Origin: Nitrospinaceae bacterium
GTDB lineage: Bacteria; Nitrospinota; Nitrospinia; Nitrospinales; Nitrospinaceae
Length of the DNA: 64,000 nt
Assembly (NCBI GenBank): GCA_024644405.1
Contig: JAHELC010000002.1
Location: forward strand, 186,001-250,000
Direction of reading: 5' to 3'
Part shown: one piece after another, positions 1-12,314 of the stretch
Numbering within the stretch: position 1 is the first letter of the stretch
How the letters are laid out: each line of letters opens with the position of its first letter
Translations under genes and position numbers: made by a program
Notes under the pieces: model-generated
Seen by the model: the letters and a program-made list of their open reading frames with translations, nothing else
Told to the model about the DNA's origin: nothing
Databases searched by the model: none

Positions 1-318
1 AACCGCCATCATCCCGACCACAGAGTCGCGCCGTATCCCGGAATTATTCACAAGAACCTCAAACTGTTTGAAATTTTCCTCCACATATTTGAAAAACGCA
101 ACGACTCCGTCATAGTCGGAAACATCGAATTGCCGGAGGTGGAGCCGGTCGCTGTAGTTTTCATTAGCTTTTTGGAAATCCTGTGCGGCAGAGTCATCGG
201 AACGGTAGGTAGCGATCACCTGAGCGCCGGCGGCGAGAAATGCTTCAGCCACACCGCGGCCGATTCCGCGCGTGCCGCCGGTCACAATAACAGTTTGATC
301 TTTGAAATCGAAATTCAC
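1..318 (-). CDS. Short-chain dehydrogenase/reductase, FabG-like (3' end off window)
   Basis: The reading frame starts at a GTG (318-316) and runs off the left edge, leaving 106 residues. It opens with NFDFKDQTVIVTGGTRGIG, the Rossmann TGxxxGIG cofactor motif of classical SDRs. It ends shortly after EVLVNNSGIRRD, the NNxG structural motif. The catalytic Ser-Tyr-Lys lies beyond the window, so activity cannot be judged. It follows a ketosynthase, an ACP and two FAD oxidoreductases on the same strand, so a 3-oxoacyl-ACP reductase role is the likely reading. No strong ribosome binding site precedes the GTG, and another start is possible. Confidence 0.8.
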   Translation of the reverse strand, partial: MNFDFKDQTVIVTGGTRGIGRGVAEAFLAAGAQVIATYRSDDSAAQDFQKANENYSDRLHLRQFDVSDYDGVVAFFKYVEENFKQFEVLVNNSGIRRDSVVGMMAV

Positions 319-393
319 GATAGATGGATTGGACAGAAGAAGGGAAGAAACAACAAAAACTCAACTTATTGGGCGTATTTCCGTTGCCGAAAT

Positions 394-1842
394 TTATACG
401 CTGACGGTTTCCAGTTCCGGTTGGGGTTGGGACACCGCGTGCAAGAATTTATCCACTTCGTTGGACACAATCACCCCGTAATTGGCCGCGCCCAACCAAC
501 CGGACATGATGATCCCCACCGAACCCGCATGGAACAACCCTGCAATCTGTTTGGGAAGGTCCTTGCTGATCGAAAGCCCTTCAAACTTGGTGCCGAAAGA
601 AACGCCGTTCGGATGCGCGGTGTAGCGTTTGAATGTCACCGGAGTGGAAGCTTCCAGGTGATCTATTTTTTTGCGTACATCAGGAACGTATTTTTCCAAA
701 GCGTCCAGTGTCCGATCGATCAACAGTTTCTTTTTCTTCTCGTATTCCTGACGGGTCAGATGGGCCCAGTCCTTGAACCGTGCGTTGGTCGAAGCCACGA
801 TGGAATACATGTTGAGGCCCGGCCGGGTTTCCGGATAATAAAAACTGAAGGTCCGGCTGGTGGTCTCCGGTTCCAGGAGAGAGGCCGAACTGAATTCCTT
901 TTCCTGGGAGGTGAACAGCAGGTCTCCGACATTATCGATCTTTTCGCCTCTTTTAAGGCCCATATACACCTGGCAACTGCTGTCATTCAACCGGACCTTT
1001 TTAACCTCATCAAGAAATTCCGGAGTAAAGTGTTCGTCACCGGTCAACTTGTGAATGGTGCTTAAAATATTTGAATTGGATAAAACGGTTTTGGCGGGGA
1101 TCATCCGGCCCTGAACTTCCACCCCCTGCACGGTTTTGTCATTCACGACAACGCGTTCGACCATGCAATGGGTGCGGATATCCACGCCGTTTTTCAGCAG
1201 TTCCTTTTTCATTTTCTTGATCAGTTCGTTCGTACCGCCTTTAAACGTGTACACCCCTTTGTCCATGAAGTTGGCGAACACGATCCCGTAGGTGATCGCC
1301 GGATCATCCAGAGTGGAACCGTTGGCGTAGGTGATGGGTTCCATCAACAGGCGGTGGACATCGGTCCGGCCGGGGAAAAACTTTTCGAACAATTCGCGGG
1401 TGGTCATTGACAGGTCGTCATAAAAATTCATCGCCCGCACCGTTTGGAAAAAATCGTCGATGGTTTCCTTGACGATTCCGAAACGGTCTTTCATCAGGCG
1501 GGTAAAATCGTTTTTATCGAAATTGGTCCAGAAGGAGAATTGCGGGTTGTCGAAGCGGATGTTCTTGAGGCGGACGATGGAATCGGCGATTTCCTGGGTC
1601 CAGTATTTGCGGCAGGTTTTGATCATGCCGGTGGGAAACCCGTGCAGGGAGATATCCAGAATATGGCCGCCTTTGCGTTTGAACCAGGTGGCCAGCCCAC
1701 CCAAATTGTAGTGATGTTCGAGGATGAGAACCTTATATCCCAGTTTGGCCAGCTTGTTGGCGGCGGTCAAACCTGCCAGGCCACTGCCGATAACAATCGT
1801 ATCGTAAGCCGACTTGATTCCCTTCAGCCAGTCTTTAGCCAT
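394..1842 (-). CDS. CrtI/CrtISO-like FAD-dependent oxidoreductase (second copy)
   Basis: A 482-residue member of the phytoene desaturase/carotene isomerase/retinol saturase superfamily. The N-terminus has the dinucleotide-binding motif [12 protein letters not shown], with an acidic residue after the second strand ([12 protein letters not shown]). The C-terminus has the usual second FAD segment ([22 protein letters not shown]). The ATG at 1842 is preferred over the TTG just upstream: GGGAG lies at good spacing, and the ATG overlaps the upstream TGA as TGATG, implying translational coupling. It sits beside a ketosynthase and ACP rather than carotenoid synthases. Its substrate may therefore be an acyl chain, which is inference. 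Confidence 0.85.
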
Positions 1843-3254
1843 CAAATTCTCCCGTATTCGGATTTGGCTTCCGCTTGCAAAATATGCAGGTTAGCCATTG
1901 AAATTCCGCTCAATGTCGCCCCAATGATACCCAAAAATCCCTGATCTGTCCCACAAATAAATAAGTTTTTTACCGGTGTCCGCCCACTCTTGATTTTGGT
2001 AGGAGAACCGTACACGGCCCCGTTGAGATGGCCGGTGTATTTGAATATGGTCTTGGGCGTAAAAGAGTCTATATATATAATATGATCGCTGAAATCGGGG
2101 AAATAAGTCAACAACGCATTCACCCCCCGCTCCCGGTATTCCTTCTTGGCGGCCCGGTAATCGGAGCGCGCCATGGCGTCCCACAGCCTGAAATTAGCCT
2201 GATTGGTGACCCGGATGATCCCCTCGGGCGGGGCCTCCGGGTACTGGAAATTGGCGGGACAGCATAGAACACCGCTGGTGACATCGGTTAAGCCCTTGGG
2301 AACCCGGTACTTAAAGCGAGGCTCGGTGCTGTAAAACACGATGCTCTTGTCATATCCCACTTCTTTCGGCATGCGGTCCAGCACGAATATCGACTCGATA
2401 AATGACATCTGGCCGATTTCCAGGTCGGATTCTGCGACGATTTTCGGGCGGCACAGACGTAAAGTTTCGACGATTCCGGCAGAAGAAATCACTTTATCCG
2501 CCACCAGCGTTTCGCCATTCTCCAGCTGGAGGGATTGCAACTCGCCGTCCTTGTGCGCGATGCTCTGCACTCCCGCGCCCATGCGCAATTCGCCGCCGAG
2601 ACTCTGGTATTTGTCGACCAGCAGTTTCAGGATATAAGGCATCCCTCCTATCGGCTTGGCGAACCCTTCCATGAACAGGCTCTTGAACATGATCACGAAC
2701 TGGTAGAAATCCATGTCGCCTTCCGCCGCGTTGCCGTAGTACATGATGGGGCAATACAGCATGTCGATCAGTACCGGATCGGTCAGGCAGGATTCCAGCA
2801 CCTCGCGGGAGGAAATCTTCTGGCTGTCGTCCAGATCCAGCTCGTTGAATTCGCGGATATGCGTGAGCAGTTTCTGGAACCCGTCGATCTGCGAAGGGAA
2901 CTGCTCCGCGATTTCCTGTTCCATGAATTCGAATTCGTTGGTGAACCGGATCGACTTGTCGGGAAAGCGGATTTCCGACATCTCCTGCGGGCACAGGCGG
3001 AACTCTTCGTGTTTGAACCGCAGTTGCTTGAGAAGTTTGCCCAGCGGAGACGTACGCACACCTTTTGGCGTGTAATTGGTCATGGCGTGCAGGCCGACAT
3101 CGAACGTGCGGTGCTTGCGGGTATAAAAAGAGTTGAGGCCGCCGACTTCGACATGCTTCTCGACGATCAACACTTTCTTTTCGAACATCGCCAGACGAAT
3201 GCCCGCGGCCAATCCGGACAGACCGGAGCCTATTATGATGACGTCATAGTTCAT
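1842..3254 (-). CDS. CrtI/CrtISO-like FAD-dependent oxidoreductase (first copy)
   Basis: A 470-residue flavoprotein of the same superfamily as its downstream neighbour but clearly diverged from it. It starts [18 protein letters not shown] (GxGxxG) and continues [19 protein letters not shown]. The C-terminal FAD motif is [21 protein letters not shown]. Length matches the family (about 470-510). Two tandem CrtI-like genes next to ACP and ketosynthase genes recall the lipid clusters proposed for ladderane synthesis in anammox bacteria; that parallel is an analogy. No phytoene synthase (crtB) is visible nearby, which argues against an ordinary carotenoid operon. Confidence 0.85.
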
Positions 3255-3344
3255 GGTCTTGATTGTAAATGAGGCTGGGGATCAAGTAAACCGCTTGGGC
3301 GGCAGGGGATCACAAAGGAAGGCCGGGAAAATCCCGAGACGACT

Positions 3345-3608
3345 TCAACTGACCAATTCGTCGTCTTTCAGGCGCGGAAACAGGTACTCGACACTGCTCG
3401 CCATCGACACCAGTTCCTGGTAGTCCTTTTCAGGCACTTCCAGGTTGAAGCGTTTACGCAATTCCATCACGATATCGAGAAAATCCATCGAGTCCAGATC
3501 AAACTGGTCCCGCAGTTTTTCTTCGTCTTTGATGGCGCCTAAATCTTCGTCCGGAGCAATGTCGGAGATGATATTGAGGATGGCTTGTCGAACTTGGTCC
3601 CTGGTCAT
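3345..3608 (-). CDS. Acyl carrier protein
   Basis: An 87-residue acidic helical protein with the 4'-phosphopantetheine attachment motif DLDSMDFLDIV; the modified serine is Ser40. Length and helix pattern fit a discrete ACP. The spacing after the serine (DSMDF instead of DSLD.VE) and the divergent N-terminus suggest a pathway-specific ACP rather than the housekeeping AcpP. It lies between a ketosynthase and two CrtI-like oxidoreductases on one strand, so it most likely carries the acyl chain these enzymes act on. Confidence 0.9.
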   Translation of the reverse strand: MTRDQVRQAILNIISDIAPDEDLGAIKDEEKLRDQFDLDSMDFLDIVMELRKRFNLEVPEKDYQELVSMASSVEYLFPRLKDDELVS

Positions 3609-3661
3609 TCAGCGCGTTCTCCTAAAACTTGATGGTAGGGTAAAACTCCCTGAATTTCAAT

Positions 3662-4900
3662 CTATTTTTGATATTTGCGGACGATCAAAACGGAATTGAT
3701 GCCGAACATTCCGAACGAATTATTCATGATAATGCTCACATTGTCCAGCAGTTCCGGCGTATTCGCGACCAGGTTGTTGAGCTGGCATTCCGGGTCGATT
3801 TCGTCAAGGTTGAGGGTCGGGTGGACGTACCCGTCTTCAAAAGCGGGCAAGTTGCCGGTGAGCTCCAGCGCCCCCGCCGCGCCCATGGTGTGCCCCATAT
3901 AACTCTTTGTATTATTTATTCTTGTGCGACCTTCCATGCCGAACACCTCGCGCACCGCCTTGCATTCCTGAATATCGCCCAGCTGAGTCGCCGTGGCATG
4001 GGTGTTGAGGATGTCGATATCCTCCGGCTTCAATCCGGCCCGGTCCAGCGCCAGCCGCATGCACTCGGCCTGCCGCCCCGGCTCCGGCAGGATGTAGTCG
4101 AAAGCATCCGAATTGCTGGCATGGCCCACGATTTCGCCGTAAATTTTGGCGCCCCGCGCCTCCGCGTCCGGCAGGCGTTCGAGCGTGTAGACGCATCCGC
4201 CTTCGGAACAGACAATGCCATTGCGGTTCTTGTCGAACGGGCGGCTCGCCCTGGTCGGGTCTGCGTGCTCGGCCAGTGCACCCTCGCTCTTGAAACTGGC
4301 GAAGATGCCGAAGGTGTGAATGCTTTCCGAGACGCCGCCGGCGAACGCCAGATCGACCTCGTTCAGCCGCAACATCTGCGCTCCCTGGATGATGCCCAGG
4401 TTGCCCGCCGCACAGGCCGCGCCGATCGCGTAATGCGGCCCGGTAATGCCCATGTTGAGCGTCACCTCGCCCGCCGGATTGTTGGCCACCGTCCGCGGGT
4501 TGTGGTGGTGCGACCAGTACTTGGTGTCGTAGTCGTACTGGCTGATGGCGTAGACTTCGTTTTCGGTTTCGACGTTGCCGTGCTCGGTGGTGCCGAGGTA
4601 GACGCCAACGCGCGATTTATCGACCGTGTCGAACGCGATGCCGGAGTCGGCCACAGCCTCCTGCGAACAGTAGATGGCAATCGATCCCGCCCGGGTGCCG
4701 CGCCTGAGACTTTTCTTCTTCTGGTATTTGAGCTCGTCGAAATCGCACACCCCGGCCAGCACTTCGCCCATGAAACGGGTCTCGAAGCGGGTGACGCCGG
4801 ACCGGCCCTCGAGCAGCGCCTTGCGGAACTCCGCAAGAGTGTTGCCGTTGGGCGCCGTCAGGCCGATCCCTGTAATGACAATACGGTCCTCAGGCCGCAT
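3662..4900 (-). CDS. Beta-ketoacyl-ACP synthase, KAS II/FabF type
   Basis: A 412-residue thiolase-fold condensing enzyme that elongates an acyl chain with a malonyl-ACP unit. The catalytic triad is visible: Cys163 in AACAAG, His301 in NTHATATQLGD and His337 in SYMGHTMGAAG, with Lys332 nearby. It starts MRPEDRIVITGIGLTAPNG, typical of the family, and is of normal length. It is the first gene of the cluster on the minus strand, followed by an ACP, two CrtI-like flavoproteins and an SDR. The context suggests a dedicated secondary lipid or polyketide pathway rather than the main fabF. Confidence 0.92.
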   Translation of the reverse strand: MRPEDRIVITGIGLTAPNGNTLAEFRKALLEGRSGVTRFETRFMGEVLAGVCDFDELKYQKKKSLRRGTRAGSIAIYCSQEAVADSGIAFDTVDKSRVGVYLGTTEHGNVETENEVYAISQYDYDTKYWSHHHNPRTVANNPAGEVTLNMGITGPHYAIGAACAAGNLGIIQGAQMLRLNEVDLAFAGGVSESIHTFGIFASFKSEGALAEHADPTRASRPFDKNRNGIVCSEGGCVYTLERLPDAEARGAKIYGEIVGHASNSDAFDYILPEPGRQAECMRLALDRAGLKPEDIDILNTHATATQLGDIQECKAVREVFGMEGRTRINNTKSYMGHTMGAAGALELTGNLPAFEDGYVHPTLNLDEIDPECQLNNLVANTPELLDNVSIIMNNSFGMFGINSVLIVRKYQK

Positions 4901-5271: not shown

Positions 5272-5463
5272 ATGGGACTGACTTATGATGTTTTGAAGAC
5301 CAAGGTCAAATCCGAGGGCAAGTTCACGCTGGAAGAATTGATGTGGATGGTGGACAAGATGAAGGAAATGGACCGCACCCTCGACTCGGTCAAAAAAACC
5401 ACGGAAGAGCGGTTGTCCCGGATTGAAAGTAAGGACGACGACCACATTCCGGGTGGTATCTGA
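5272..5463 (+). CDS. Small hypothetical protein, 63 residues
   Basis: A small ORF preceded by a strong GGAGGTG ribosome binding site seven bases before the ATG. The product is charged and predicted mostly helical (MGLTYDVLKTKVKSEGKF, then LEELMWMVDKMKEMD), with no signal peptide or cysteine. The family is not recognised. It stands alone between a divergent lipid cluster and a convergent ispF. The good ribosome binding site and a structured leader support its being a real gene. Confidence 0.65.
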   Translation: MGLTYDVLKTKVKSEGKFTLEELMWMVDKMKEMDRTLDSVKKTTEERLSRIESKDDDHIPGGI

Positions 5464-11339: not shown

Positions 11340-12314
11340 TCAGGCGGAAACGGGTTTTTCCTCAGCGCTCTCACTGGAATCCGAATCCGAATCTGCCTTG
11401 GCGGGTGCTTCAACGGCAGTCGGTTTTTTGGCTTCCTTGACAGCAGGTGGGCTATCAGCCTTCTTCGCGGCGGCCTTTTTCTGTTCCGTCTTGGGAGGCT
11501 TTTTGGCAGCCGCGGCGGCTTTCTTGGCCGCAGCTTCCTTGGCGGCGGCCGCTTCTTTTTCTTTGGCAGCCGCTTCTTTGATGGCTGCTTCCTTGGCGGC
11601 CGCTTCCTGTTTTTCCTTTTGCACGGCCTTGTAGATTTCCTGGCCTTCGAGGCAAATATCCGCAATGCGGCTGGCAAACAGGTCGATCGAACGAATCGCA
11701 TCGTCGTTCCCGGGGATCACGTAATCTATCCCGTCCGGGTCACAGTTGGTGTCCACGATCGCCACCACCTTGATCCCCAGCTTGATCGCTTCCGCCATCG
11801 CAATGCGTTCCTTCCGGGTATCCACGACAAACATGATGTCGGGAAGGTCCTTCATGTTCTTGATGCCCCTCAGAAACTTGTTGAGCTTTTCGATTTCCTT
11901 GCGCTTGTTCTGGGCTTCCTTTTTATGCAACTGCTCGAACTGGGTTTCCTCTTCCAACCGTTCCAATTCGAGGAGACGCTGGATACTTTTTCGAATGGTG
12001 GCGAAATTGGTGAGCGTGCCGCCCAGCCAGCGCTGATTGATGTAATACATCCCGGCCCGTTCCGCCTGCTCGGCAATCAACTCCTGCGCCTGTTTTTTGG
12101 TTGCGACAAACAGAATCTTTTTACCCTGCTGTGATACATTCCTTAAATATTTCTCGGCTTCCTTGAAATGAGTCAACGTTTTCTGGAGGTTGACGATATG
12201 GATTCCGTTGCGGGACCCATAAATGTACTTCTTCATCTTGGGATTCCAGCGCGTGGTCTGATGACCAAAGTGCACCCCGGCCTCCAGCAGTTGATTCATG
12301 GTAATTTCAGACAT
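11340..12314 (-). CDS. rpsB: 30S ribosomal protein S2 with long Ala/Lys-rich C-terminal tail
   Basis: Residues 1 to about 230 are a normal S2 ([59 protein letters not shown]). About 95 extra residues follow. These are a helical Ala/Glu/Lys run (repeats of AAAKE), then a Pro/Lys-rich part, ending in an acidic Ser-rich tail. S2 is usually 230-260 residues, so the tail is unusual. It heads the rpsB-tsf-pyrH-frr operon and has a good AAGGAG ribosome binding site. Confidence 0.96.

Follow-up and report, generated by a model that had tools for sequence, protein, structure and literature searches.

The genes described here lie at the left end of a 64,000-nucleotide stretch (the window; G000:C32:186001-250000, from contig JAHELC010000002.1) of the 2.98 Mb draft genome of a Nitrospinaceae bacterium, and appear to encode a second fatty acid synthase (FAS) accompanied by two flavoproteins. 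The operon crosses the left edge of the window, and its left end was completed from the neighboring DNA. In full, it runs on the minus strand from 4900 to -1653 (negative positions lie left of the window) and comprises seven genes joined by overlaps or short gaps. The first, at 3662-4900, encodes a FabF-like ketosynthase paralogue (KAS, 412 residues) with the N- and C-terminal ketoacyl-synt domains of Pfam. It is followed by a stand-alone acyl carrier protein (ACP, 3345-3608, 87 residues; Pfam PP-binding, E-value 2.6e-07) carrying the phosphopantetheine attachment residue Ser40, and by two flavoproteins of the amine-oxidase/CrtI fold, both matching Pfam Amino_oxidase: FAD-A (1842-3254) and FAD-B (394-1842, 482 residues). 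A TTG at 1845 is a possible FAD-B start, but the ATG at 1842 is best placed since a TGATG motif joins it to the FAD-A stop codon. The ensuing ketoreductase (KR), a FabG-like short-chain dehydrogenase/reductase (SDR) of 247 residues identified by Pfam, spans 318 to -425 (L003:13575-14318), its 5' part, 1-318, being in the window. Profile matches then identify, left of the window, a FabZ-like dehydratase (DH, -425 to -853; L003:13147-13575) and a FabI-like SDR acting as enoyl reductase (ER, -850 to -1653; L003:12347-13150), each overlapping the preceding gene by 1-4 bases. As named by eye from their translations, the genes downstream of ER are the convergent pheS, rplT, infC, and thrS, and the operon starts 0.7 kb after ispF-dxr. 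Scans of the seven genes and inspection of the flanking ones by eye reveal no gene for a radical SAM protein, an acyltransferase, or a thioesterase next to the operon, and no crtB. Since the same gene order returns across phyla, the arrangement is not due to chance.

An earlier interpretation of the window made from its letters and open reading frames (the sequence-only reading) had described five of these genes, all on one strand: a KAS II with an intact Cys-His-His triad, an ACP with Ser40, two different CrtI/CrtISO-like flavoproteins overlapping as TGATG, and a FabG-like SDR. This description holds for each of them, and its expectation that the cluster continues to the left is borne out by DH and ER. 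Among the left-hand genes that it proposed to look for, FabZ is present, but neither a radical SAM nor an acyltransferase gene stands beside the cluster.

The KAS scores 318.9 bits against the NCBIfam fabF model, under the cut-off of 493.75, and is therefore regarded as a FabF paralogue. An ordinary plsX-fabH-fabD-fabG-fabF operon is found elsewhere in the genome, on contig C31 (FabG being assigned by its KR match and position), and its KAS reaches 649.5 bits with the same model. Conservation was assessed on tblastn matches from several phyla with 90% coverage, no stop codon, and a family-specific identity floor of 38-50% (at least 50% for KAS). In these alignments, the KAS residues Cys163, His301, and His337 are unchanged in 47 of 47 rows, that of the window included, as are the DSM motif and Ser40 of the ACP in 53 of 53 rows, S144/Y157/K161 of KR in 53 rows, H45/E59 of DH in 79 rows, and Y154/K161 of ER in 66 rows. 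Separate KAS, ACP, KR, DH, and ER proteins, each with its catalytic residues, constitute the elongation machinery of a type II FAS. The DH belongs to the FabZ type, scoring 119.9-120 bits with FabZ models and about 23-25 with FabA, and no FabA-subfamily protein is found among the seven cluster genes. Compared with solved structures, DH scores 82-86 bits with the group 7qv0/8ayb/8ayc/8ayi (86 for 7qv0), which we take to be the anammox FabZ, and 79 bits with an ordinary FabZ, a slight gap.

The two flavoproteins share 26% identity. Their top NCBIfam models are the carotenoid isomerase and CrtD, all far under the curated cut-offs of the carotenoid models used (TIGR02730, TIGR02733, and TIGR02734): FAD-A reaches 95.6 bits for a cut-off of 586.9, and FAD-B 101 bits for 549.7. 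Sequence searches of solved structures return weak matches alone for both. Their AlphaFold models (pLDDT 92 for FAD-A and 88 for FAD-B) have 4rep as top structural match, with Z 30.7, a root-mean-square deviation (rmsd) of 3.5 and 438 aligned residues for FAD-A, and Z 32.4, rmsd 3.1 and 434 aligned residues for FAD-B; the nearest solved folds of both are the carotenoid desaturases 4rep, 4dgk, and 5mog. The likeness to CrtISO, CrtI, and CrtD thus extends to the fold and to weak profile matches, but the clades are separate: in a 39-row tree, FAD-A and FAD-B each form a clade supported at 100/100 and group jointly at 98/95, apart from the two annotated CrtI rows, the deep joins of this tree being unsure because of long branches. 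The fatty acid isomerase of Propionibacterium acnes that forms conjugated linoleic acid (2b9w) also has the same fold, at 13% identity (Z 23.0, rmsd 4.0, 387 aligned residues with FAD-A; Z 23.6, rmsd 3.7, 389 aligned residues with FAD-B). It presumably provides a case of FAD-dependent isomerization of fatty acid double bonds, acting on free linoleate and outside any FAS operon, and serves here as a precedent only, because its Z scores tie with those of many amine oxidases.

Two observations on relatives of the flavoproteins may be added. In genome G008, the FAD-A match (L042:6724-8124) spans a stop codon, which is probably the natural gene end, the open frame there being of 473 residues. Among the plasmid matches to FAD-B listed with at least 80% coverage, identities are 21-24%; on the Pseudalkalibacillus plasmid NZ_CP156675.1 (L211), a CrtI-like flavoprotein adjoins an ACP, a FabZ-family dehydratase, and an enoyl-CoA hydratase/isomerase, and this represents a different acyl cluster that likewise recruits the CrtI-like fold.

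The cluster was traced across genomes through one marker, FAD-B. This gene is present in 59 of 77 Nitrospinota genomes, one of which (G053) holds just a 44-residue fragment; a count of 68 obtained at an E-value of 1e-3 includes weaker paralogues and was not retained. In the window's order, completeness reaches 90% or more in 28 genomes, and 27 of these carry FAD-B; G018 does not. At least 568 FAD-B relatives occur in named genomes, and the best 80 of them, 21 from Nitrospinota and 59 from elsewhere, provided the loci scanned here; their titles include Nitrospinota/Nitrospina, Chloroflexi/Dehalococcoidia, Phycisphaerae, Planctomycetaceae, Opitutia, Deltaproteobacteria, and Muiribacteriota, among others. 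Outside Nitrospinota, in relatives from Chloroflexota, Planctomycetota, Opitutia, and elsewhere, FAD-B shares 56-69% identity with that of the window in the aligned set, and down to 43% in the Planctomycetota sample described below. In the gene-order maps, which keep the best of overlapping matches, all seven genes stand together in 9 of the 20 Nitrospinota loci retrieved by position; with identity floors of 30-50%, they do so in 11 of the 21 Nitrospinota scan loci and in 7 of the 59 others, 7 further loci lacking KR alone. Many of the remaining loci run off the end of a contig, or their KAS or FAD-A gene lies elsewhere. A phosphopantetheinyl transferase (PPTase) gene follows ER at 16 loci by neighbor clustering and at 17 by direct match. 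Two loci titled Candidatus Kuenenia stuttgartiensis (L115 and L125) were not used as anammox representatives: their titles look wrong, because their FAD-B neighborhoods match those of the Planctomyces-titled L119 and L128.

Clustering of the genes neighboring the cluster yielded OleA, OleC, and OleD, which curated models confirmed. The genome of the window possesses OleA (G000:C28:49206-50249; NF006720, 451.5 bits for a cut-off of 285), followed by a haloalkane-dehalogenase-like hydrolase that we take to be of the OleB type, and OleC on another contig (G000:C16:84975-86576; NF006754, 719.3 bits for a cut-off of 478). In two phyla, ole genes adjoin the operon itself. The oleA gene stands immediately upstream of KAS in L076, L078, L088, L099, and L118, titled Dehalococcoidia, Dehalococcoidales, or Chloroflexi, and oleC-oleD take this position in L082, L086, L097, L106, and L120, titled Phycisphaerae or Planctomycetota. 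In L103, titled Opitutia, OleA follows ER; in L200, belonging to a set (L198-L204) picked for having FAD-B and OleA on one contig, oleA and oleC continue from ER in the same direction. Altogether, an ole gene lies on the fetched stretch in 13 of the 59 non-Nitrospinota loci; where FAD-A is present too (26 loci), the number is 12. At the genome level, OleA is found in 45 of the 50 genomes behind the FAD-B loci from outside Nitrospinota, and L107 and L129, among the five misses, have an OleA match on the locus. Of side interest, two Dehalococcoidia-titled loci (L099:3025-8500 and L118:99-5200) exhibit a tandem doubling of the oleA-KAS module, with two OleA and two KAS, which may correspond to two chain types or to a heterodimeric synthase.

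An even draw of 199 Planctomycetota genomes contains FAD-B in 42 and OleA in 72. OleA is present in 42/42 of the FAD-B-positive genomes versus 30/157 of the others, no genome of the draw has FAD-B without OleA, and in 20 of the 42 the two genes lie within 15 kb of each other. Among 251 Chloroflexota genomes, FAD-B occurs in 2, both with OleA. In Nitrospinota, 44/59 genomes with FAD-B have OleA versus 3/18 without, and either OleA or OleC is found in 55/59 versus 4/18, the four being G070, G018, G060, and G061, the last through an OleC match below the cut-off. The Nitrospinota families devoid of FAD-B are also devoid of OleA and OleC, with the exception of G070. An oleC gene has already been reported from a Nitrospina metagenome-assembled genome (PMC10176705). 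Within one family, a single stop codon falls inside the OleC profile match of G028, G029, G030, G031, G035, and others, and it may be no more than the natural end of a shorter protein.

The known supplier of polyunsaturated chains to Ole enzymes is the Pfa synthase, and among OleA-positive genomes its distribution is largely complementary to that of the cluster. With the PfaA model TIGR02813 (cut-off 1010.1 bits), the genome of the window returns three matches, the best at 124.6 bits, none over the cut-off. Planctomycetota with OleA and without FAD-B have PfaA at an E-value of 1e-100 or better in 29 of 30 cases, 24 of them over the cut-off, versus 2 of 42 and none for those with FAD-B, so that 71 of the 72 OleA-positive genomes of the draw hold FAD-B or PfaA. 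OleA lies within 40 kb of PfaA in 17 of the 31 Planctomycetota holding both. The OleA neighborhood is thus open to either the FAD-B cluster or Pfa, since both are found near OleA (L198-L204 as against L228 and L229). In Nitrospinota, PfaA exceeds the cut-off in one genome out of 77, G070 (1077 bits with the neighbors in frame), which carries OleA, OleC, and part of OleD (contigs C29, C26, and C65, fetched as L189, L190, and L191) and lacks FAD-B, and hence forms a natural contrast case.

Pfa and the cluster are built differently. According to published work (PMC6463001, PMC4882568, PMC3098273), the Ole enzymes are predicted to join two 16:4(n-3) chains, most likely delivered by the ACPs of Pfa, into C31:9, and Pfa is thought to need both a trans-2,2-cis and a trans-2,3-cis isomerization, performed by its DH domains. 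The same sources describe Pfa with OleABCD in Shewanella and Photobacterium, and a type I form in Geobacter, where ketosynthase, ACP, KR, DH, ER, and PPTase functions feed OleA as they would in the cluster. Pfa also resembles the cluster in its genomic neighborhood with ole genes. Pfa, however, is a multidomain system whose isomerase domains are FabA-like, whereas the cluster relies on separate type II proteins, with a DH of the FabZ type and two flavoproteins. Other parallels are known from published descriptions of the anammox bacterium Kuenenia and of Desulfotalea psychrophila, whose FAS-like clusters combine FAS genes with CrtI-like flavoproteins, two in the former (Kuste3336 and Kuste3607; PMC2649909, PMC4790861) and three in the latter (DP1860, DP2405, and DP2406; PMC2649909). 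These clusters differ from the window operon by the addition of radical SAM, membrane protein, and CoA ligase genes, and by having FabI elsewhere. In Rattray 2009 (PMC2649909), D. psychrophila is reported to make C31:8 and C31:9 while having no polyketide synthase (PKS), and anaerobic synthesis of polyunsaturated fatty acids is proposed for the Kuenenia and Desulfotalea clusters. By analogy, these C31 polyenes would be the best existing support for the product envisaged here. A word search of its text returned no mention of OleA, head-to-head condensation, or Nitrospina. What was known before is therefore the proposal of anaerobic polyunsaturated fatty acid synthesis for a related cluster, and what is new is the link to Ole and the Pfa exclusion; neither was found in the literature searched, which left most subscription papers aside.

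Taken together, the genes, their conserved catalytic residues, their adjacency to ole genes in two phyla, the co-occurrence with OleA, and the Pfa exclusion form the basis for assigning the cluster as a dedicated synthase of polyunsaturated chains for OleA, standing in for Pfa, an assignment that we consider probable. This estimate covers the core proposal alone; the desaturase alternative discussed below shares that core and differs in chemistry, so the likelihoods of the two overlap. The Ole link shifts the interpretation from the ladderane-like product of the sequence-only reading towards a polyunsaturated hydrocarbon, and we infer from the same data a polyunsaturated product, an isomerase role for the flavoproteins, and the steps at which they might act. 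The primer and malonyl units would be supplied by the ordinary FAS. On the cluster ACP, KAS would extend the chain, KR reduce it, and DH dehydrate it to trans-2-enoyl-ACP; ER would saturate the rounds meant to be saturated, and in the others the trans-2 double bond would be converted to a retained cis bond. FAD-A and FAD-B may be the isomerases, each performing one conversion (trans-2 to cis-2, and trans-2 to cis-3). One isomerase each is the simplest fit, because the Pfa logic for 16:4(n-3) calls for two conversions and a cluster without a FabA-type protein holds two extra flavoproteins. OleA would then condense two of the completed chains, and the remaining Ole enzymes would deliver a long polyunsaturated alkene such as C31:9. 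The full form of this proposal is a second, non-homologous and oxygen-independent route to all-cis polyunsaturated chains, in which a type II FAS with two flavoprotein enoyl-ACP isomerases replaces Pfa before OleA and gives Nitrospinota, Planctomycetota, and Dehalococcoidia their C31 polyenes, the anammox ladderane route being maybe derived from it. We find it plausible while stopping somewhat short of favoring it.

Several observations weigh against the assignment. In Nitrospinota, none of 21 loci has ole genes beside the cluster, and in the ten Planctomycetota with the top FAD-B scores, a search for the seven genes within about 9.5 kb of OleA returned nothing but a weak KR match (29%). FAD-A is not near FAD-B in 33 of the 59 non-Nitrospinota loci, partly through contig ends. 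OleA also occurs without FAD-B, in 14 of 249 FAD-B-negative Chloroflexota, in the Planctomycetota genome G379, which lacks PfaA as well, and in the Nitrospinota genomes G018 and G060, devoid of both flavoproteins; Ole therefore does not need the cluster. G018 belongs to the genus of the window, is 97% complete, and has OleA and OleC, so that the missing FAD-A and FAD-B may reflect either an assembly gap or a real loss. Conversely, 7 Planctomycetota have PfaA without OleA, and G497 (370 bits, a partial stretch) and G572 (647 bits) combine FAD-B with a PfaA-family match under the cut-off. The co-occurrence counts are phylogenetically non-independent, and the literature searched yielded no lipid data from Nitrospinota. 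Lastly, no new fatty acid appeared when Kuenenia genes, of possible kinship to those of the window, were expressed in E. coli (PMC4790861).

Among the alternatives, the strongest takes FAD-A and FAD-B for oxygen-independent desaturases of acyl-ACP, passing electrons to a quinone like phytoene desaturases, with the cluster still building the chain and OleA using the product. The carotenoid desaturases found as closest solved folds speak for it, as does the desaturation proposed in Rattray 2009 (PMC2649909). A set of dedicated KAS, ACP, KR, DH, and ER would then be superfluous, and two types of isomerization fit two flavoproteins, both being indirect arguments; we hold this chemistry to be doubtful. 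It is rather unlikely that the chain made for Ole is not polyunsaturated at all and is instead branched, trans-unsaturated, or cyclized: Ole pathways elsewhere do take saturated, monounsaturated, and branched chains (PMC6463001, PMC4882568, PMC3098273), but the Pfa exclusion among Ole genomes points the other way, and so do the C31:8 and C31:9 of D. psychrophila, whose genes are known here from the published description. A general pathway for the unsaturated fatty acids of membranes, the link with Ole being then a by-product of lifestyle, would suit the near-universal presence of FAD-B in the almost complete genomes of the window's order. It accommodates poorly the strict co-occurrence with OleA in Planctomycetota, often within 15 kb, and the fact that Pfa takes the place of the cluster, and appears improbable.

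Less credit still is given to the ladderane and isoprenoid explanations. The sequence-only reading had drawn a parallel with anammox clusters, and the resemblance in gene mix stands, Kuenenia clusters having FabF, ACP, FabG, FabZ, and CrtI-like genes (PMC2649909, PMC4790861) and the PDB entries nearest to the cluster FabZ being 7qv0 and 8ayc; but the mix is not specific to anammox, FAD-B being spread over several phyla. The intact KAS triad does not decide this question, because in Kuenenia the active site is altered in three paralogues and conserved in five (PMC2649909). A strict ladderane cluster is disfavored by the absence of radical SAM genes in or flanking the locus and by its wide spread, to which are added the tie to Ole and the report, in PMC2649909, of no ladderanes in D. 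psychrophila; an anammox-type route to ladderanes or their precursors in Nitrospinota is thus very improbable. That carotenoid or other isoprenoid enzymes sit by chance in a FAS operon is suggested by the fold likeness and the weak profile matches, yet the order with KAS-ACP-KR-DH-ER is kept in several phyla, and we find the idea scarcely credible. A carotenoid cluster was rejected on the absence of a nearby crtB, the scores far under the carotenoid cut-offs, and the separate clades. The claim of the sequence-only reading that the product of the operon is an unusual acyl chain rather than a carotenoid is upheld, since neither of the signs to the contrary that it had named, an upstream crtB or a tight grouping with carotenoid desaturases, is observed. 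The single SQS_PSY match of the genome (L004:9571-10689, contig C16 of G000) lies on a different contig, where its neighbors as named by eye are ispH and sdhAB; it fits squalene synthase at 144 bits, under the cut-off of that model, and may serve squalene or hopanoid synthesis. The two Kuenenia CrtI-like proteins gave no lycopene in E. coli, according to PMC2649909 and PMC4790861.

In the literature searched, bacterial polyunsaturated chains for hydrocarbons rest on one machine, Pfa. If the synthase proposed here is real, such chains could be made by small soluble enzymes, simpler to study and to engineer, and Nitrospinota together with a sizeable part of Planctomycetota would be makers of polyene hydrocarbons by an unassayed route. 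The C31:9 that Rattray 2009 left as a puzzle in D. psychrophila, a bacterium with no PKS, would be accounted for as well, and ladderane chemistry would gain a testable ancestor.

Regarding the rest of the window, an Rfam scan at the gathering threshold reports one tRNA and nothing else. A plus-strand ORF of 63 residues (5272-5463), located between KAS and ispF, has no match in Pfam (E-value 0.01) or NCBIfam (E-value 1e-40). The gene at 11340-12314 encodes ribosomal protein S2 with 324 residues, the S2 domain covering residues 9-224 and being followed by a long C-terminal extension rich in Lys, Ala, and Glu.

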